A stretch of 31,855 bases of DNA, taken from the IMG/VR virus record IMGVR_UViG_3300042516_002783, positions 1 through 31,855 of that record; one strand, written 5' to 3'. The number at the start of each line of letters is the position of its first letter. Within the stretch, counting starts at the first letter, position 1. The translations under genes and the position numbers were made by a program. Of this stretch, positions 2,759 to 30,617 are shown in pieces. The stretch comes from a virus. A model generated the notes under the pieces. That model was not told where the DNA came from, ran no database searches, and worked only from the letters and a program-made list of their open reading frames with translations.

Positions 2759-2796
2759 ACTCCCGTGCCGCCTAAATAGTGGCACGGGAGTTTTTT
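2759..2796 (+). terminator. Rho-independent terminator with late-promoter motif in its loop
   Basis: A perfect 11-bp stem ACTCCCGTGCC / GGCACGGGAGT is followed by six T. The 11-nt loop contains CTAAATAG (2772-2779), which matches the late-promoter motif seen elsewhere in the window. Confidence 0.92.
2772..2778 (+). promoter_or_regulatory. Candidate T4-type late promoter CTAAATA
   Basis: CTAAATA lies in the terminator loop, 56 bp before the start at 2834. If used, late transcription would begin on the 3' side of the same hairpin and read the next gene without passing the complete terminator. Confidence 0.45.
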
Positions 2797-2833: not shown

Positions 2834-3631
2834 ATGGCACACAAACACAGCGAGGGTTCGCCGTGTGAATGTGAGAAACTAAAGAATGCCGAGCGGGAAG
2901 AACTCCGCGAGGGTCTTAAGAGATGTGTTGAAGCCCGTGAAGCCGAGCGGCGGGAACGGGAAGCCGAAATCTCAAAACGGGCAGACGAAGCCGAGGCTGA
3001 AGTCAAAAGCCTGAAGAAGCGACTTATTGCATTCCAACTGGCTACTGCGGTTGGGGTGGCTGTGATCGGTCAGGAAGCGTTTGACAAGATCACTGCAAAG
3101 ATGGATGCCGCGCAGGAGATGCAGGAAAAGATCACGGGCGGGGCGGCTCCCGTTTCCGATGGTGGCGGCAAGAAACCACAGGCAATGGACACCATCGGGC
3201 AACCGTTTGGCGGTCGTCCGTGGCAGAAGCCGCAGCGCATCACCATACAGGAAGATCGCGGCAACGGCGACATCAGTGGAATATTCGCTGGCGGAAAACC
3301 CAAGCCCTCCACCGATGCGCCTCCTGCCGTGCCTGATGTGGCAGTGCGGCAGCGGTCGGTTGGTGACGAGATTGCCCGCCTTGCCACGGCTGCGGACATT
3401 CCGCTTGCGGTTCCGTTCGCGGCGGTGGAGGATCCGTATGCGGTGTTCCTGACACCAAGCACACTGCCGTTTGATGTGTACAGCACAACGCTGGCATTAG
3501 GCAACAACTACGGTTTCGGAGAGTATTACGGTATCGGTGGGGGTGGAGCAATCGCTCCGTCCGTGCCGTCACCATCTCCGCTCACGGTGTTTGCCGTTGG
3601 CGGACTGATGCACAATCGCAGACGAGCATAA
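2834..3631 (+). CDS. Membrane-anchored coiled-coil protein with PEP-CTERM-like tail
   Basis: 265 residues, start behind GGAGGACAGAAAG. Residues 1-62 are a charged coiled coil (many Glu/Arg/Lys) with an early CEC motif. Residues about 63-82 (LIAFQLATAVGVAVIG) form one hydrophobic segment, plausibly a signal anchor with the N terminus inside. Then follows a Pro/Gly/Ala-rich low-complexity region. The last 22 residues (244-265) read VPSPSP, a short hydrophobic stretch LTVFAVGGLM and HNRRRA. This is the layout of PEP-CTERM exosortase sorting signals (VPxPS, hydrophobic segment, Arg cluster). The next gene carries a clearer version. Surface display through the host exosortase is inferred. Confidence 0.65.
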   Translation: MAHKHSEGSPCECEKLKNAEREELREGLKRCVEAREAERREREAEISKRADEAEAEVKSLKKRLIAFQLATAVGVAVIGQEAFDKITAKMDAAQEMQEKITGGAAPVSDGGGKKPQAMDTIGQPFGGRPWQKPQRITIQEDRGNGDISGIFAGGKPKPSTDAPPAVPDVAVRQRSVGDEIARLATAADIPLAVPFAAVEDPYAVFLTPSTLPFDVYSTTLALGNNYGFGEYYGIGGGGAIAPSVPSPSPLTVFAVGGLMHNRRRA

Positions 3632-3640
3632 GGAGAGTAG

Positions 3641-4273
3641 ATGCAAAAGAAGATATTGGCAGGAGTCGGCGCAGCAGCAGTCAGTGCGTCCGCTATGGGC
3701 GGATTGGTTGACGGCAGTTTTGAAAACAACGATGTCTATTACGGTTGGGGATTTGTTCAGGGCGGAATTGACACTTCATGGCTTACTACTGCTCCCGACA
3801 ATCTCATTGAGATTTGGGGAGAGTACATGGAGATTTCTGCATATGACGGAACCCGTTGCGCGGAACTGAATGCAAACTACGCTTCTACTCTGTATCAGAC
3901 CGTGGCTCCCGTTGGTGCGGGTGCGGCGGTGAACTGGCATTTCGCACACCACGGGCGTTACGGCACGGACACGATGCGCCTCACGATCACGGATCTCGGC
4001 GCGGATCAGGTGTGGGGCGGTGGCGATGATACCACGCTGTTTACGAATGAGTTTTCCGCAGACAACACCGCGTGGGTGCTGAACTACGGAGGCGTTACCT
4101 CTTTGGGAAATTCCATGCGGTTTGCGTTTGAGGCGGTGAGCGCAGTGGGCGGCAACACGCAGGGGAATCTGATTGACTGGTGTGATTTCGGCGTGGGTGT
4201 TGTGCCTACGCCTGGTGCAATTTCTCTTTTGGCAATCGGAGCATTTATTTGTGGTTTGCGCCGCCGCCGCTGA
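3641..4273 (+). CDS. Secreted beta-sandwich protein with PEP-CTERM sorting tail
   Basis: 210 residues behind AAGGAG, 9 bp after the preceding gene. Residues 1-20 (MQKKILAGVGAAAVSASAMG) are a Sec signal peptide. Residues about 21-185 resemble the secreted beta-sandwich domains typical of PEP-CTERM and DUF642-like proteins: GSFEN start, IEIWGEYM, ELNANYASTLYQTV, a FAHHGRYGTDTMRL segment and GGDDTTLFTNEF. Residues 188-210 are VPTPG, a hydrophobic segment AISLLAIGAFICGL and RRRR, a near-textbook PEP-CTERM tripartite signal of the VPTPGA type seen in Planctomycetota. Phages rarely carry this signal. It probably coats the host envelope or extracellular matrix, perhaps altering adsorption; this is inference. 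Confidence 0.8.
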   Translation: MQKKILAGVGAAAVSASAMGGLVDGSFENNDVYYGWGFVQGGIDTSWLTTAPDNLIEIWGEYMEISAYDGTRCAELNANYASTLYQTVAPVGAGAAVNWHFAHHGRYGTDTMRLTITDLGADQVWGGGDDTTLFTNEFSADNTAWVLNYGGVTSLGNSMRFAFEAVSAVGGNTQGNLIDWCDFGVGVVPTPGAISLLAIGAFICGLRRRR

Positions 4274-4766: not shown

Positions 4767-5092
4767 GCATTGTTGATCGTGGACGGAAACGCAAACAGCA
4801 CGGGGGTTCGACTCCCCCCGACTCCATTAAAAGATGCGCGAATGCGGAGTGACTGCATCACCCGCCTCTTCCCGCAGTCAAGTCCTCCAGTTGCAGTGGG
4901 GGCAAATATACGGGGTTGATACGGAATCGACTGGTGCGGAGTACTGAAGCAGGAGATGTCCGAGGCGTGTGGCGGATCCTCGTTAAAAAAACTGCCACAA
5001 CCATGATTGCCAACCGAATGGCAATGGCGGCTTGAAGCCGTGGGGACTGATCCTCCCGCATCTGAACGGATCAGGAGAGCCGCAAGGCTCTC
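4767..5092 (+). ncRNA. ssrA: Circularly permuted two-piece tmRNA
   Basis: The 3' (acceptor) piece comes first: a T arm GGGGG-TTCGACT-CCCCC (4802-4818), acceptor strand CGACTCC (4819-4825) and discriminator A4826, with no encoded CCA. An 85-nt intervening segment (4827-4911) follows. The 5' (coding) piece then starts at 4912 with GGGGTTGATACGGAATCGAC, matching the canonical tmRNA start GGGGCTGATTCTGGATTCGAC. GGGGTTG pairs with CGACTCC over 7 bp (two G-U). A tmRNA-like helix CGAGG/CCTCG (4961-4982), an A-rich stretch and the tag frame follow, then a region able to fold as a pseudoknot. Permuted tmRNAs are known from alphaproteobacteria, some cyanobacteria and some betaproteobacteria. The acceptor-piece 5' end (about 4767) is a guess. 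Confidence 0.9.
4994..5035 (+). other. tmRNA proteolysis-tag reading frame
   Basis: After the A-rich stretch ending at 4991, the frame GCC ACA ACC ATG ATT GCC AAC CGA ATG GCA ATG GCG GCT TGA encodes ATTMIANRMAMAA. The Ala resume codon, an A at -4 and the hydrophobic end MAMAA fit known tags (E. coli ANDENYALAA). The exact resume codon is inferred. Confidence 0.75.
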
Positions 5093-5101
5093 TTTTCTTT
5101 T
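5075..5101 (+). terminator. Rho-independent terminator of the tmRNA
   Basis: Stem GAGAGCC / GGCTCTC with a GCAA loop, then TTTTCTTTT. It ends the tmRNA transcript 29 bp before the next gene. Confidence 0.9.
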
Positions 5102-5129
5102 ATACATACAGGACACGGAGGAAACACAC

Positions 5130-5372
5130 ATGAGTTACTTGTTCAATGAAGCGAAGCCATTTGCAAACAATACTTCAGTTGGGAAATGCAAGGGCGTTCT
5201 ATTAACAAATACAACTGGTAGTGCAGTGCTTGCAGACCTGTGGACCTACGGCGATCTTGGAACCACTGCTGCCACCCGTGTGTCTATTACAGGCAATTCC
5301 ACCGAAATTTTTCATATAAGAGTATGGGGAATTTCTTTTGGAGGGGGATTGACTGGCGCGGTTCTCGCCTGA
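5130..5372 (+). CDS. Hypothetical protein, 80 aa, beta-rich
   Basis: Start at ATG 5130 behind GGAGGAAACACAC. The frame is open upstream to 5007, but that part lies in the tmRNA and its terminator, so I reject it. The product begins MSYLFNEAKPF and looks all-beta (KGVLLTNTTGSAVLADLW, RVSITGNSTEIFHIRVWGI), which resembles small phage head- or tail-decoration proteins; this is a shape argument only. A strong ribosome site immediately after a terminator implies some late read-through or an unseen promoter. Confidence 0.6.
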   Translation: MSYLFNEAKPFANNTSVGKCKGVLLTNTTGSAVLADLWTYGDLGTTAATRVSITGNSTEIFHIRVWGISFGGGLTGAVLA

Positions 5373-5401
5373 TTAAAATACTGCGGGATCGGATTCCGCT
5401 A

Positions 5402-5429
5402 TTGACCCACCCGCCGCACACGCTATACT
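5402..5429 (+). promoter_or_regulatory. Sigma70-type promoter, 16-bp spacer
   Basis: TTGACC, 16 bp, TATACT. The expected start site, 6-7 bp after the -10, falls at 5435-5436, exactly the ATG of the next gene. Confidence 0.75.
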
Positions 5430-5435
5430 GTGTGC

Positions 5436-5633
5436 ATGGCAAAGCGAGTTCTAGATCCTATTGACATTGAAGCCGAGCGGCAAGGCGCAGCAGTAGCCCG
5501 AGGACGGCAGCAGCAGTGCAAGCCGTTCGGTTTCAACAAGCGTACCCACAAGGAGCGCAAGGCGCGGCTTGACGGCGAGTTCCGTCAGCAGTGCCGTACC
5601 GTGAAGACCCGTATGTTCGTGGAGACTTGGTGA
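5436..5633 (+). CDS. Small basic protein, probably leaderless mRNA, 65 aa
   Basis: ATG 5436 begins MAKRVLDPIDIEAERQG; an in-frame GTG at 5430 overlaps the promoter region and is unlikely. The predicted transcription start coincides with the ATG, and no Shine-Dalgarno sequence is present, so the mRNA is probably leaderless. The product is Arg/Gln/Lys-rich (GAAVARGRQQQCKPF, KRTHKERKARLDGEFRQQC) and probably binds nucleic acid. Its stop overlaps the next start (TGATG), so the zinc-finger gene is coupled to it. Confidence 0.6.
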   Translation: MAKRVLDPIDIEAERQGAAVARGRQQQCKPFGFNKRTHKERKARLDGEFRQQCRTVKTRMFVETW

Positions 5634-5848
5634 TGCCCCGTACCTGTGACAACTGTAACTGTGTCATTCCCCCTGCGCGTCTTGAGGCTCTGCCCACCAC
5701 TACTACTTGTGTGAAGTGTTCGCGGGTCACCACATTCGTTGGATTCATGGACTGGTCGCACAAGACTGCTCCTGAACTGGTTGTCGTGAACAGTGCAGAC
5801 AGTGAGAACTTGCGCCGAGCGCAACGGATCAACGCCCGAGCGCGTTGA
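5633..5848 (+). CDS. DksA/TraR-type C4 zinc-finger protein, 71 aa
   Basis: Start at ATG 5633 in a TGATG overlap, with GGAGACTTGG upstream. Residues 5-29 contain C5-x2-C8, then IPPARLEALPTTTTC and a second C26-x2-C29. This is the DksA/TraR zinc-finger signature (CxxC, IPxxRLxALP, CxxC). Short TraR-like proteins bind the secondary channel of RNA polymerase and mimic ppGpp/DksA. This copy lacks the long acidic coiled-coil tip of full DksA, so it may only keep the finger. It shares an early-type operon with the basic protein before it. Confidence 0.75.
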   Translation: MPRTCDNCNCVIPPARLEALPTTTTCVKCSRVTTFVGFMDWSHKTAPELVVVNSADSENLRRAQRINARAR

Positions 5849-5853
5849 ACTAC

Positions 5854-5925
5854 GCGGGTTTCGTATAGAGGCTATTACGCGGGTTTTCCAAACCCGTCAC
5901 GGGAGTTCGATTCTCCCAACCCGCA
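5854..5925 (+). tRNA. tRNA-Gly (TCC)
   Basis: Acceptor GCGGGTT / AACCCGC, discriminator A, anticodon stem CGGGT / ACCCG with loop TTTCCAA (anticodon TCC), T arm GGGAG-TTCGATT-CTCCC. No CCA is encoded. Confidence 0.9.
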
Positions 5926-14021: not shown

Positions 14022-14094
14022 ATAGTCGTGACTGAACTGTTTGTCACACACACTTCATACACCGTACATACCGTACACAACAAGGAGACACGCA
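14022..14094 (+). promoter_or_regulatory. Gene 32 leader, possible autoregulatory operator
   Basis: A short stem GTGAC / GTCAC (14028-14047) is followed by about 35 nt almost free of G (A/C/T-rich, with ACCGTACA twice) up to the ribosome site AAGGAG. T4 gp32 represses its own mRNA by binding an unstructured leader next to a folded element; this leader has the same layout. Function inferred. Confidence 0.45.
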
Positions 14095-15036
14095 ATGGGA
14101 TTCAAAGACCTCAAGTCCGCTTCCAAGAACTCGTATCAGACTCTCGCATCCGAAATGGACAAGATGGCGAAGAAGTCCGAGTCTTACAAGGATGACCGCT
14201 TTTGGAAGGCGGAAACAGACAAGACAGGCAATGGCTACGCGGAGATTCGCTTCCTTCCCGCACCCGATGGCGAGGATCTGCCGTGGGCGCGTGTGTGGAG
14301 CCACGGTTTCCGTGGACCAGGTGGTTGGTACATTGAGAACTCGCTCACCACGATTGGGCTGAAGGATCCCGTGTCCGAGATGAACAACCTCCTGTGGGAG
14401 AGCGGTTCCGACAAGGACAAGGCGATTGCCCGTGATCGCAAGCGGCGACTGTCGTACATCAGCAATGTGCTTGTGGTCAGCGACCCCAAGCACCCCGAGA
14501 ACGAGGGCAAGGTTTTCCTGTTCAAGTACGGCAAGAAGATTTTTGAGAAGATTCAGGGTGCGATGAACCCCGAGTTTCAAGACGAGAAGCCGATGAACCC
14601 CTTTGACTTTTGGGGTGGAGCAAACTTCAAGTTGAAGATCCGTCAGGTGGATGGCTACGCAAACTTTGACAAGAGCGAGTTTGCTGCTCCGTCAGCCCTG
14701 CTTGGTGGTGATGACTCTGCGCTTGAGAAGATGTGGAAGACGCAGCACTCCCTGAAGGAGTTCACCGATCCGAAGAACTTCAAGTCCTATGACGAACTGA
14801 AGGCTCGTCTTGAACAGGTTCTTGGTGGTAACATCCGCGCAACTGCATCGGACGCGGTTGCGAAGGGTGGCGCGGAGAAGGCTGCGTTTGATGACGAGGA
14901 CTCTGCTCCTGTGCGTAAGCCATCCACTCCTCCACCCGCAAAGAAGCCTGCTCCCGTGAAGGAAGCCGTCAAGACCGATGACGATGACACGGAAGACGCT
15001 CTGTCCTACTTTGAGAAGTTGGCAAGCGAAGACTAA
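14095..15036 (+). CDS. 32: Single-stranded DNA-binding protein gp32
   Basis: 313 residues (T4 gp32 has 301), start behind AAGGAGACACGCA. The core matches T4-type gp32: a basic N terminus (MGFKDLKSASKNS), RFLPAPDGEDLPWARVW, then NVLVVSDPKHPENEGKVFLF and KYGKKIFEKIQGAM, FDFWGGANFKLKIRQVDGY and a very acidic C terminus (KTDDDDTEDALSYF). It coats single-stranded DNA and recruits replication and recombination proteins through that acid tail. The zinc-binding His/Cys cluster of T4 gp32 is missing: the region reads LKDPVSEMNNLLW, as I recall for cyanophage forms. Confidence 0.92.
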   Translation: MGFKDLKSASKNSYQTLASEMDKMAKKSESYKDDRFWKAETDKTGNGYAEIRFLPAPDGEDLPWARVWSHGFRGPGGWYIENSLTTIGLKDPVSEMNNLLWESGSDKDKAIARDRKRRLSYISNVLVVSDPKHPENEGKVFLFKYGKKIFEKIQGAMNPEFQDEKPMNPFDFWGGANFKLKIRQVDGYANFDKSEFAAPSALLGGDDSALEKMWKTQHSLKEFTDPKNFKSYDELKARLEQVLGGNIRATASDAVAKGGAEKAAFDDEDSAPVRKPSTPPPAKKPAPVKEAVKTDDDDTEDALSYFEKLASED

Positions 15037-24904: not shown

Positions 24905-26929
24905 ATGCCAGGCAATGGAGTTTCTAGAGCATATCTTGACACGGCGGGCGGCACGATTCAGGTCGGCAACCCAGATTTTTTCTTGGATGGCTTGCCTGTA
25001 GCCGTTCAGGGAAATCCCGTGCAGAGTCACGGCAAGAATGAACACAGCAATGCAGTGATGCTAAACGGAACTCCGAGTTTCCTGATCAACGGTATTCCTG
25101 TATGCACATCTGCAAGCCAAGCCAGTTGCGGACACCAAGCCACTGGTTCGTCCACCTTCACGGTCGGAACATCAAGCAGAGGCACGGAAAGCAGAAATCC
25201 TGGTGTTGCTCCACAGTTTTCGTATACTCCTCCCGAGACTCCGCGACCGATATGGGTTGCTACTTGGTACGCCCCCGTCACGGGAAAGACCACTAAAAGT
25301 GCGAGTGCTGATCTTTTGACTTCGGATGATTTCAACAGATACGAATATGTGAAGCCGCTGATATGGTTGACTGCGCCGAATGCATCGCAATCGTACATTG
25401 ATGATTCTGCCACCCAATACTTTTCCAAAATTCAGACCGTTGCTGCATACAGAGACAGAATGAACGGGATTGTGAACGGACTGAATGCCCTGCCAGAGGG
25501 TATGCGAGTGTTGGCTCCAGTCTACTATTGGGGCGGATATGTGTACTACGCTAGTCCGACCGAGAAACGAGCAGACATTGACACCTTCTTGGCAAACAAT
25601 CCGCCAGAGTTTCCTGGCGACTACAACACATACAACGCTGGCAATTTTGCGGTGTACGGAGATCGCGCTCACGGAGTATTTCTCTTCAATCGCAGATCAG
25701 ACAACCTCAAGGGCAGCGGGTGGACACTTGCCTCTATATGGGGAGCCACCGCCATAAATCAGATATATCAAGATTGGAAAGTCATGTGTTCGGGACTGAA
25801 GCAGCGCGGCGCGAACATTGATTATCTTGTGTTTGATACCGAGGGATTTCCCGCAGATGCGTTCAACGCACAGCCAACTGCGGAACTTGCTAAAGTGGCA
25901 CTACAGACAATGCAAGCCGATCCTCGCGCAGAGCAGGAGTGGTATGGCGCACGACCTCTCAATACCGTACTGAAGCAGGACGGAAAGTATCCAAACAACA
26001 GCGCACTAGAGGCAGCCACGACGCGGCACCCGCAAAAGAATCCTAGTTACATCTATTGGAACGGTGGTCTTGCGTCCATAAGAAACGCGAGTCTCACCTA
26101 TTGTTTCCATGATACGGCAAAGGAACACTATCCTGACATCGGCATGAGCAACTACCGATGCTATGCCACGAAAGACCGCGATTGGGCATACGATGTGTAT
26201 GGGCATCCGAAATTTGAGGAAAAAACTGTTGGAGACAGCAGTTCTCCCAATCTCTATTGCTCTTGGAATTTTGATTTTGCTTGGGTAATTGATCCGTATG
26301 ATGATACCCGCATCATCAGAAACGAAACAAATGCCACGACATTGGCTTTGCCAACATTTAAAAACAGCATATGGAACTGTTTCTTGGTGGATATGCAGCA
26401 GATCAGGGCTGCTAGACGGACAAGTCCTGACGATAAACTGCGACCGTGGTTGCGATCCAAGGCACTGAAGCCTAGTTCCGCTTATGTGGTTGGCATAACA
26501 CAGGGGCAAGCAAACTCTCCTAGTAGTGGCGAAAATTTCTATTATGAACTTGTTCGTCACTCTGCGGTCATGGGCGCAGAACACTTCTATTTCTTTAATG
26601 CAACGGATGCTCTTGCCGATGCTCCTGCTGGCATATATGACACTAGTTGCTCTGAACTAAATGCCATAATGACCGAAGTGAATGACTTACTCGGCGGCTT
26701 CTCGCCAGAAGTGGTTACGAAGAGTCGCATTTCCTTCAAGACGGATTATGTGGTGAGCGGCACGAAAGCAGCAGGCGGCGACAACGCAGGCAGGTATGTG
26801 TGGAGAATAACTCCAAAGCCTGGTCTGACGCTCATAAGCGAAACAGGACGACCACTGACGGTGGACTCCGATGGTGGCGCGTGGCTCGTTACATCGTCTG
26901 TCATCATACCTAAATATTCTGTTCAATAA
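24905..26929 (+). CDS. PAAR spike tip fused to a glycosidase-like domain, 674 aa
   Basis: Residues 1-90 are a PAAR domain: MPGNGVSRAYLDTAGG, VAVQGNPVQSHG, MLNGTPSFLINGIPV and CGHQATGSSTFTVGTS, with His/Cys positions for the metal at the tip. Residues about 115-600 form a large alpha/beta unit that looks like a TIM-barrel glycoside hydrolase: PIWVATWYAP, RVLAPVYYWGGYVYY, YLVFDTEGFPADAF (acid residues at a strand end), SAYVVGITQG and AEHFYFFNATDAL. A small beta domain ends the chain. T4 has a bare PAAR tip (gp5.4). Here the tip would carry an enzyme into the envelope. The activity is unproven. Confidence 0.75.
   Translation: MPGNGVSRAYLDTAGGTIQVGNPDFFLDGLPVAVQGNPVQSHGKNEHSNAVMLNGTPSFLINGIPVCTSASQASCGHQATGSSTFTVGTSSRGTESRNPGVAPQFSYTPPETPRPIWVATWYAPVTGKTTKSASADLLTSDDFNRYEYVKPLIWLTAPNASQSYIDDSATQYFSKIQTVAAYRDRMNGIVNGLNALPEGMRVLAPVYYWGGYVYYASPTEKRADIDTFLANNPPEFPGDYNTYNAGNFAVYGDRAHGVFLFNRRSDNLKGSGWTLASIWGATAINQIYQDWKVMCSGLKQRGANIDYLVFDTEGFPADAFNAQPTAELAKVALQTMQADPRAEQEWYGARPLNTVLKQDGKYPNNSALEAATTRHPQKNPSYIYWNGGLASIRNASLTYCFHDTAKEHYPDIGMSNYRCYATKDRDWAYDVYGHPKFEEKTVGDSSSPNLYCSWNFDFAWVIDPYDDTRIIRNETNATTLALPTFKNSIWNCFLVDMQQIRAARRTSPDDKLRPWLRSKALKPSSAYVVGITQGQANSPSSGENFYYELVRHSAVMGAEHFYFFNATDALADAPAGIYDTSCSELNAIMTEVNDLLGGFSPEVVTKSRISFKTDYVVSGTKAAGGDNAGRYVWRITPKPGLTLISETGRPLTVDSDGGAWLVTSSVIIPKYSVQ
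26910..26916 (+). promoter_or_regulatory. Candidate late promoter CTAAATA
   Basis: CTAAATATT overlaps the last codons of the PAAR fusion gene, 24 bp before the next start. Confidence 0.45.
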
Positions 26930-28390: not shown

Positions 28391-28800
28391 TGGCACTACG
28401 GATAACGAGCAACAGCACCAAGCCAGTATTCTCTGACATAGACCCGAACTTCACGCGCAGTCCGAAGACAAACGACTTGCTCACGGTTCGGGACGATGGT
28501 GCTGTCCGTTTGGCACTGAAGTGCCTGCTGTCAACATCTTTCGGAGAGCGGCTGTTTCAGCCCACCATCGGCGGATCACTTCGTCCGCTCCTGTTTGAAC
28601 CCATTGATGCCATCACCACGATGGAGATCCGCGACCGCATTCTGCAAACCATCAACCGCCATGAGCCGCGAGTCGGAAATGTGCTGGTTGATGTGATTGC
28701 CAATCCTGATCAGAACTACTACACCGTCAATGTTGAATATTCCGTGATAGGCGTTGGAAAAACCGACAGGGTATCTGTCGTACTAGAAAGGCTGCGCTGA
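28390..28800 (+). CDS. 25: Baseplate wedge gp25 (GPW/gp25 family)
   Basis: 136 residues (T4: 132), starting in an overlap with the GAF-like gene. It has DIDPNFTRSPKTNDLLTVRD, AVRLALKCLLSTSFGERLF, QPTIGGSLRPLLFEP and INRHEPRVGNVLVDV, the full gp25 pattern including the EPR motif. gp25 binds the inner baseplate and nucleates sheath contraction. Its stop overlaps gene 6. Confidence 0.92.
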   Translation: MALRITSNSTKPVFSDIDPNFTRSPKTNDLLTVRDDGAVRLALKCLLSTSFGERLFQPTIGGSLRPLLFEPIDAITTMEIRDRILQTINRHEPRVGNVLVDVIANPDQNYYTVNVEYSVIGVGKTDRVSVVLERLR

Positions 28801-30617
28801 TGGCTAACACGAACAGTTTCAACATTGTGGGTCTTGACTTTGATGACGCAAAATCGTCATTGAAGGCGTTCTTGCAGTCGCAGGAAACGCTGAAAGACTA
28901 CAACTTTGACGGATCGGTGCTGTCCACTGTGCTTGATGTGCTGGCATACAACACCCACTATCAGGCGTTCTACGCAAACATGGTGGCAAACGAGATGTTC
29001 CTTGACAGCGCGGCTCTCCGTCCGTCCGTAGTTTCTCATGCAAAGACTCTTGGATATGTTCCGACATCACGCCGATCAGCAAAAGCCGTGCTTGGCATCT
29101 CTGCCGCTGGCGCATCGGAAAGCACCTATCTTGCGCGTGGATCCGAGTTCGTGGGAACCGATCTTGCAGGAACGCAGTACCGTTTCGTGCTGCTTGACAC
29201 CGTTTACGCAAACTCCGAAACGCAGCAGTTTGAGGATGTGGAGGTCTACGAGGGAACCCTGCGCCGCATGAGTTATGTGTATGACCCAACGAAGAAGCCG
29301 TCTTCCGTGCTGCTCATCCCGAATGACAAGATTGACACCAGCACCATCAAGGTGCGCGTGAAGGCTTCGGCAAACGACAACACAGGCATAGAGGACACAT
29401 GGACATATTCGGAATCGTATATTGACCTGACACCCACTTCAAAGGTGTTCTTCCTTCAGGAGAAGGAGTCGGGGATGTATGAACTGTTCTTTGGTGACGA
29501 TTTCCTCGGTCAGCAGCCAGATGCAGGAAACATCGTGATCGTGGAGTATCTTGAAACAAACGGTGATGAAGGCAACGGCATTGAATCGTTCACATCCAAT
29601 ATTGCTGGTCTTGGAAACATCGGCGTGTTCAGCGCATCCTCTGGTGGTGCATTGGAAGAGAGCGTTTCCAAGATCAAGTTCCTTGCTCCTCGCTTCTATC
29701 AATCGCAGAATCGTGCGGTCACAGAGGATGACTATACCGCTGCCGTGATCAAGGACTATCCTGCTGCGGATTCGGTATATGTTTATGGAGGAGAAACGGT
29801 AACTCCTCCGCAGTATGGCAAGGTTTTCGTTGCCGTGAAGCCGCGCACGGGAACCGCGCTTACCACCGAAGAGAAGCGCAGTCTTGCAAAAACGCTGAAG
29901 GAAAACCGCTCGGTGGTCACGGTCACGCCCGAAATCGTGGATCCCGACTACATTGATCTCGTGATTGACTCGCTCGTCACATACGATCCTACCCGCACAT
30001 CGCTCGGAGTCGGAACCCTGAAGGCTCTCATGGTGGCTTACATCTTCACCTATTCCGCCACCACACTTGAGCGATTCGGTTCAAACTTCTATCTGTCCAA
30101 ACTCACGGAAGGGCTGAACCGCCTTGACTCGTCCATCTTGAGCAACGACACGAAGATCAAGATTCGCAAGACCGTGAACTTGAGCAAACTGGTGCTGTCA
30201 AAGGGATTCACCGTGGATTTCAGAAATCCCCTGTATCATCCCCACAGTGGTCACTCCACGATTGTTTCGTCTTCCACATTCTCCCATGTGGACACGGACG
30301 GAACTGTCATCAGCGATGTTTTCGTGAATGATGACGGCAACGGAATACTGAATCTTGTTGCAAAGAACAGCGGCGGCACGATCTACACCGTGTATCCGCG
30401 CATCGGAACCGTGGACTACGACAACGGAAAGATCGCGTTCAACTCGGCGTTCGCTCCCGTAAGCACATCGGTGCTGTTCACGATCACCGTAGAGCCACGC
30501 AACGAGGACATCTTCGTGTTTGAGAACAAAATCGTGCGGATCAACAGAGGCTACTCTGATTCCGTGAAGTTGAGCGTTCAGTCGCAAACGAACCGCAAGC
30601 AGAACCTGAAAGCGTAA
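28800..30617 (+). CDS. 6: Baseplate wedge gp6
   Basis: 605 residues (T4: 660). The N terminus (GLDFDDAKSSLKAFLQSQET, LDVLAYNTHYQAFYANMVAN, EMFLDSAALRPSVVSHAKTL) is the classic gp6/gpJ-type wedge sequence, followed by LGYVPTSRRSAKA and the VKFLAPRFYQSQNRAVT-like core (here KIKFLAPRFYQSQNRAVTED). gp6 dimers form the continuous ring of the inner baseplate. The last 120 residues add a beta-rich domain. Confidence 0.92.
   Translation: MANTNSFNIVGLDFDDAKSSLKAFLQSQETLKDYNFDGSVLSTVLDVLAYNTHYQAFYANMVANEMFLDSAALRPSVVSHAKTLGYVPTSRRSAKAVLGISAAGASESTYLARGSEFVGTDLAGTQYRFVLLDTVYANSETQQFEDVEVYEGTLRRMSYVYDPTKKPSSVLLIPNDKIDTSTIKVRVKASANDNTGIEDTWTYSESYIDLTPTSKVFFLQEKESGMYELFFGDDFLGQQPDAGNIVIVEYLETNGDEGNGIESFTSNIAGLGNIGVFSASSGGALEESVSKIKFLAPRFYQSQNRAVTEDDYTAAVIKDYPAADSVYVYGGETVTPPQYGKVFVAVKPRTGTALTTEEKRSLAKTLKENRSVVTVTPEIVDPDYIDLVIDSLVTYDPTRTSLGVGTLKALMVAYIFTYSATTLERFGSNFYLSKLTEGLNRLDSSILSNDTKIKIRKTVNLSKLVLSKGFTVDFRNPLYHPHSGHSTIVSSSTFSHVDTDGTVISDVFVNDDGNGILNLVAKNSGGTIYTVYPRIGTVDYDNGKIAFNSAFAPVSTSVLFTITVEPRNEDIFVFENKIVRINRGYSDSVKLSVQSQTNRKQNLKA

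Follow-up and report, generated by a model that had tools for sequence, protein, structure and literature searches.

Our analysis of uncultured T4-like phages, in which unrelated proteins carry the same surface-sorting label, suggests that the surface-sorting machinery of the host is borrowed late in infection. The window analysed, a 31855-base IMG/VR virus record that is a fragment and contains eight tRNA genes, carries two adjacent genes, gene 1 and gene 2, for which the original prediction proposed PEP-CTERM-like tails (Table 1). Both open reading frames are in place, and 37 of the 39 gene 2 copies (the window and 38 contigs) have the tail, as does every one of the 23 full-length gene 1 proteins that were aligned. 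The comparison across loci makes chance an insufficient explanation, and confirms that these tails are real, conserved and PEP-CTERM-like.

Table 1. Coordinates of the features discussed, in the window and in related phage contigs.
Feature	Record	Position	Strand	Description
Intrinsic terminator-like hairpin	Window	2759-2791	+	13 pairs, T run; closes the upstream unit
CTAAATA, late-promoter-like motif	Window	2772-2778	+	In the hairpin loop, 62 nt ahead of gene 1
Gene 1	Window	2834-3631	+	265 aa; Cys pair, long helix, disordered linker, PEP-CTERM-like tail
Gene 1 tail, VPSPSPLTVFAVGGLMHNRRRA	Window	3563-3628	+	VPSPS-hydrophobic-RRRA; pattern in 23/23 aligned gene 1 proteins
Gene 2	Window	3641-4273	+	210 aa; putative signal peptide, predicted CBM4/22-like jelly roll, PEP-CTERM-like tail
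Gene 2 signal-peptide-like N terminus	Window	3641-3703	+	Residues 1-21; hydropathy and helix 2-17
Gene 2 tail, VPTPGAISLLAIGAFICGLRRRR	Window	4202-4270	+	VPTPG, 14 hydrophobic residues, RRRR
T4-type single-strand DNA binding protein (presumed)	Window	14041-15036		phrog_224
Baseplate wedge protein	Window	28800-30617		phrog_219, E 7e-161
Gene 3 (example)	L052	5929-6381	-	TIGR02595, 17.7 bits
Signal peptide and tail protein, textbook-looking, phage-borne	L053	4264-4893		Tail VPAPASIALLGLAGLIGKRKRN; TIGR02595, 16.4 bits
Signal peptide and tail protein, textbook-looking, phage-borne	L105	2304-2978		Tail APAPSAIALLGLAGIVGRRRR

We identify the window as a T4-like myophage because it encodes both a baseplate wedge protein, 37% identical to the counterparts in Pelagibacter phage HTVC008M and Methylophilales phage Melnitz, and a protein that, from its PHROG match, we liken to the T4 single-strand DNA binding protein. 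The collection of isolate phages held no good relative of gene 1, gene 2 or a third tail-bearing family, gene 3. Matches labelled as Listeria phage, in unannotated records 12.7-16.6 kb long, were discarded as uninformative on the window's phage, because the same domain is found in a Listeria pilin gene. The window also encodes a 674-residue PAAR-motif protein (24905-26929; phrog_281), whose long C-terminal region is of no recognisable kind.

Gene 2 begins after a gap of 9 nt from the gene 1 stop, with GGAG ahead of its start, and has relatives on 38 IMG/VR contigs of up to 157 kb. Our signal peptide and membrane helix calls rest on hydropathy and on AlphaFold helices; by hydropathy, the N terminus is hydrophobic in 29 of 29 gene 2 proteins, and the AlphaFold model places a confident jelly roll (pLDDT 83) between an N-terminal helix (residues 2-17) and a C-terminal one (191-209). 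The secreted beta-sandwich of the original prediction is thereby borne out as a predicted jelly roll of the carbohydrate-binding-module (CBM) type: its best solved matches are CBM4-2 (Z 16.2, rmsd 2.4 over 146 residues), CBM16, CBM61 and CBM22, and the modelled fold is that of a CBM4/22-like module. The likeness to CBM4, CBM22, CBM16 and CBM61 is one of fold, with Z 13-16 for aligned stretches of about 140-149 residues; by sequence, gene 2 matches neither a solved chain nor Pfam, the gene 3 profile likewise matches no solved chain, and sugar binding by gene 2 is putative. The nearest named sequence relatives are bacterial isopeptide-forming fimbrial, DUF11 and immunoglobulin-like surface proteins of Streptomyces, Enterococcus and Listeria, at 31-40% identity over 39-88% of the protein. 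In bacteria this domain is part of genes whose annotation is that of fimbrial or surface proteins, whilst in phage gene 2 it is followed by a PEP-CTERM-like tail. Matches of nine of 29 gene 2 members to a MARTX model (12.1 bits, where the cut-off is 700, for the single member with a score given) were attributed to the shared adhesin-like domain and set aside.

Gene 1 is less conserved than gene 2, its identity to the window falling to about 20%. Its AlphaFold model, of low confidence (pLDDT 55), consists of a long helix (residues 12-100), a disordered stretch and, towards the C terminus, a short helix (250-260), and hydropathy places a hydrophobic stretch at residues 64-80 inside the long helix; the protein appears to combine a coiled coil with one hydrophobic helix, and has no signal peptide. 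An assignment as i-spanin was dropped, as the coiled coil comes before the hydrophobic helix. Across alignment A6 every full-length protein closes with a proline step followed by a hydrophobic run and basic residues, the last mostly [NT]-R-[KR]-R or near it, and the tails are less hydrophobic than those of gene 2 (11-residue mean 1.28-2.41). No sorting-signal HMM matched the gene 1 tail, either in the window or in its relatives, and two loci (L038 and L039) carry short, tailless gene 1 proteins. At another locus, L012, a deletion took out most of gene 2, and the alignment blocks pass from gene 1 into the last codons of gene 2, such that gene 1 acquired the gene 2 tail in frame and now ends in TPRRRNI, the ending of gene 2 in L004. 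This deletion-fusion, albeit a single event, is what selection for a tail would be expected to leave. Elsewhere in gene 1, the segment TPSTLPFDVYSTTLALGNNYGFGEYYG (window 3426-3539) is nearly identical in the distant L011 between dissimilar flanks, as in a mosaic module.

How far, then, do the tails agree with the PEP-CTERM signal? Over the 29 gene 2 proteins of alignment A5, mean pairwise identity falls from 0.70 for the body to 0.43 for the tail and 0.29 for the signal-peptide region, so that the ends drift in sequence yet keep their pattern, as would be expected of targeting signals. At least three basic residues lie within the last nine in 29 of 29 gene 2 proteins, and the run of ~14 hydrophobic residues before a C-terminal basic cluster is that of PEP-CTERM. 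The two of the 39 gene 2 copies that lack the tail are L050, cut by the contig end, and L049, which is frameshifted; the broken copy in the latter (5001-5905) has a tail remnant in another frame. On the other hand, the near-invariant Pro-Glu-Pro of TIGR02595 is missing from the window, where the tails read PTP (gene 2) and PSP (gene 1), as well as from all 29 gene 2 tails of A5, and it appears in 2 of the 23 gene 1 tails (L004, IPEPQ; L042, VPEPST). The signal (TIGR02595/PF07589) was described by Haft et al. (2006), in whose account Pro-Glu-Pro is near-invariant (PMC1569441).

In a frame search of the record, the window gene 2 tail scores 16.6 bits against TIGR02595 (cut-off 16), but in the stricter scan of the whole 210-residue protein it reaches 8.0 bits, below the cut-off, and HMM support for the window alone is borderline. 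Whole-protein scores of gene 2 relatives lie at or just under the threshold (L029, 16.1; L002, 15.7; L035, 15.4 bits), and 9 of 34 gene 1/2 records exceed it, seven through the gene 2 tail, as assigned by hand comparison of positions, and two through other proteins. None of 14 control genomes matched at E up to 0.001, nor did any at the looser limit of 0.1 used with the gene 3 records; once E values as high as 10 were admitted, 12 of the 14 did, two of them above the cut-off, and single weak matches are therefore not to be over-read. In the HMM check that had been proposed, gene 2 lies above the cut-off in the frame search and below it as a whole protein, and gene 1 gives no match; a PEP-CTERM-like identity is supported by the conserved tails and the near-threshold relatives, but the Glu is missing from the window tails. 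Given the absence of Pro-Glu-Pro from the window tails, we do not file them as strict members, but regard them as PEP-CTERM-like variants that probably work like PEP-CTERM.

Beyond the window, the tail pattern was found in 23/27 gene 1, 26/29 gene 2 and 23/27 gene 3 ORFs over all loci, against 1/1208 others, the lone exception being a secreted PEP-CTERM-like protein of contig G010. Because the pattern was devised with the tails of both genes of the pair in view, independent evidence comes only from the background rate and the third family; pattern and ORF picking together overlook some cases, such as the L053 protein. Gene 3, first reached through a match on G009, is unrelated to gene 1 and gene 2, is about 150 residues long without a signal peptide, and occurs on 29 IMG/VR contigs (loci L071-L099) plus G010 and G001. 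Its tails are VPAPGVLAMLGIAAIIARRKR-like, with Pro-Glu-Pro in 1 of 21 (L096), and TIGR02595 exceeds its cut-off in 14 of 28 gene 3 records, 13 of these at gene 3 itself. The two longest contigs, G015 and G021, had nothing flagged besides gene 1 and gene 2. In L105 (2304-4100), the PEP-CTERM-type protein of this phage contig adjoins a secreted protein with dockerin-like repeats.

Set against the PEP-CTERM/EpsH system (TIGR02595/PF07589), the phage tails have in common the C-terminal position, a proline motif, ~14 hydrophobic residues and a basic cluster, to which can be added the putative signal peptide on gene 2 and the occurrence of several unrelated proteins per lineage. They differ in that phages encode them, that Pro-x-Pro-Gly stands in place of Pro-Glu-Pro, and that no exosortase accompanies them in the record. 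A signal peptide is also missing from gene 1 and gene 3, which is unusual for PEP-CTERM proteins and argues against one exosortase account for all of them. Three further exosortase-dependent/PEP-CTERM families (NF038120, NF038125 and NF041927) match phage proteins weakly, at the tail where coordinates are given and far below the curated cut-offs where these are given.

The setting of the gene pair bears on its timing. The hairpin that closes the upstream unit holds in its loop a CTAAATA motif, which we take to resemble a T4-type late promoter; six copies occur in the window against 0.98 expected, and [CAT]TAAATA lies at most 110 nt upstream of gene 1 at 16 of 21 loci, compared with 3.9% of random windows. 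A similar layout, with the motif in the terminator loop, is seen in L002, L003, L018 and L029. A holin-like protein adjoins gene 2 in L033 (phrog_2359 at 9.5e-11, with a sub-threshold Pfam holin match) and next to the pair in L008 lies a lipoprotein (3831-4124) whose C terminus has a hydrophobic stretch; the neighbours tested in the window itself received no PHROG name. The late-promoter-like motif and the holin-like neighbour point to a role at the time of lysis as at least as likely as superinfection exclusion, one of the functions put forward at the outset, and tip the balance slightly towards the exit of progeny.

These neighbours also feed the chief rival to exosortase sorting, namely plain membrane anchoring, in which the tails would be ordinary C-terminal anchors and both proteins accessory lysis proteins of the inner membrane (holin regulators or spanin-like partners), with no exosortase involved. 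The holin-like gene and the lipoprotein beside the pair in relatives, the internal helix of gene 1, and the position of most tails below the TIGR02595 cut-off are all in keeping with such anchors. However, generic anchors require no Pro-x-Pro-[GS] at a fixed place followed by a short hydrophobic run of 13-14 residues and a basic end, a layout that extends to the unrelated gene 3, recurs in the ordinary PEP-CTERM-type proteins of sister contigs (L053, L105) and is next to absent from the other ORFs. We consider plain anchoring unlikely, and lean modestly towards a T4-like phage lineage that supplies its own substrates to PEP-CTERM/exosortase-type sorting by the host, with a late role at the surface or in egress.

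Whose exosortase could this be? None of the 51 phage records scanned contains PF09721 exosortase, and any processing would therefore use that of the host. A gene 2 profile search of genome contigs gave five loci, all in Actinomycetota (one a Coriobacteriia MAG) or Bacillota, which identify no host and were rejected as pointers; the bacterial sequence relatives found for gene 2 belong to Actinomycetota, Bacillota and other lineages, none of them Planctomycetota. Between phage-conserved genes, G010 encodes another two proteins with the tail, together with one dockerin protein (PF00404, 29.3 bits) and one prepilin that bears an FFDGHV motif (TIGR02532, 21.1 bits). In L011 a subtilase is followed by GC-type dockerin-like ends, which are seen in L081, L091 and L092 as well. 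GC-type dockerins and H-X9-DG prepilins are linked to Planctomycetota. Cohesin/dockerin modules are recorded from freshwater Planctomycetes (PMC6461901), and PEP-CTERM from Planctomycetes (PMC1569441). These features of the sister contigs hint at a plausible Planctomycetota-like host. The subtilase was abandoned as a host clue, its matches being spread over many lineages, and the G010 prepilin, searched for the same end, had no plasmid match. The host-like secretome cassette of two tail proteins, dockerin protein and FFDGHV prepilin lies within a phage contig (L024, 7723-9976, minus strand, and L054, 9404-10492, minus strand).

Under host-mediated sorting, gene 1 and gene 2 would be produced together from the late-type promoter. 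Gene product 2 would be exported by its signal peptide until the C-terminal tail halted in the inner membrane with its arginines inside, whereupon the host exosortase would cut at or near Pro-x-Pro; the cut product could then reach the cell's outer surface or the matrix and there bind polysaccharide through its CBM-like domain. Gene product 1, with a tail of the same type, would insert via its internal helix. Most likely the two products would cover the dying cell's envelope and polysaccharide or loosen them, letting progeny exit without re-binding debris or neighbours. PEP-CTERM genes have been implicated in aggregation (Gao et al. 2018, as cited in PMC12642866).

Could the tails instead be decoys, phage substrates that flood the host exosortase and leave host surface and matrix proteins unsorted, with a polysaccharide coat weakened during infection? 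That unrelated phage proteins have the tail alone in common, and that gene 3 has no signal peptide, would suit such a scheme, but the best conserved part of gene 2 is its body (at the 0.70 pairwise identity given above), which a decoy does not need, and we hold the idea to be improbable. More improbable still is a gene 2 product that acts on the virus particle as a polysaccharide-binding adhesin or decoration protein, a role suggested by its many Foldseek matches to tail fibres and phage carbohydrate-binding domains, since T4-like virions assemble in the cytoplasm, from which a signal peptide and hydrophobic C-terminal tail would remove it.

Our literature search, which covered titles and abstract openings with subscription papers mostly outside its scope, met no mention of phage-encoded PEP-CTERM proteins. 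We are evenly divided on the fullest form of host-mediated sorting, in which at least three unrelated proteins of a widespread T4-like phage lineage would come under exosortase-type sorting by the host, as the first virus-encoded exosortase substrates, and would re-dress the envelope and matrix of planctomycete-like cells around lysis. How exosortases act on their substrates, and why environmental bacteria need them, is little understood so far. That a virus retains such tails on unrelated proteins across a large divergence would imply that this kind of sorting is important at the cell surface while infection proceeds, and the phage tail proteins are small, testable candidates for exosortase substrates. 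They would help to show how phages cope with Planctomycetota-like envelopes, and would provide a sequence signature by which to find the phages of exosortase-bearing hosts.
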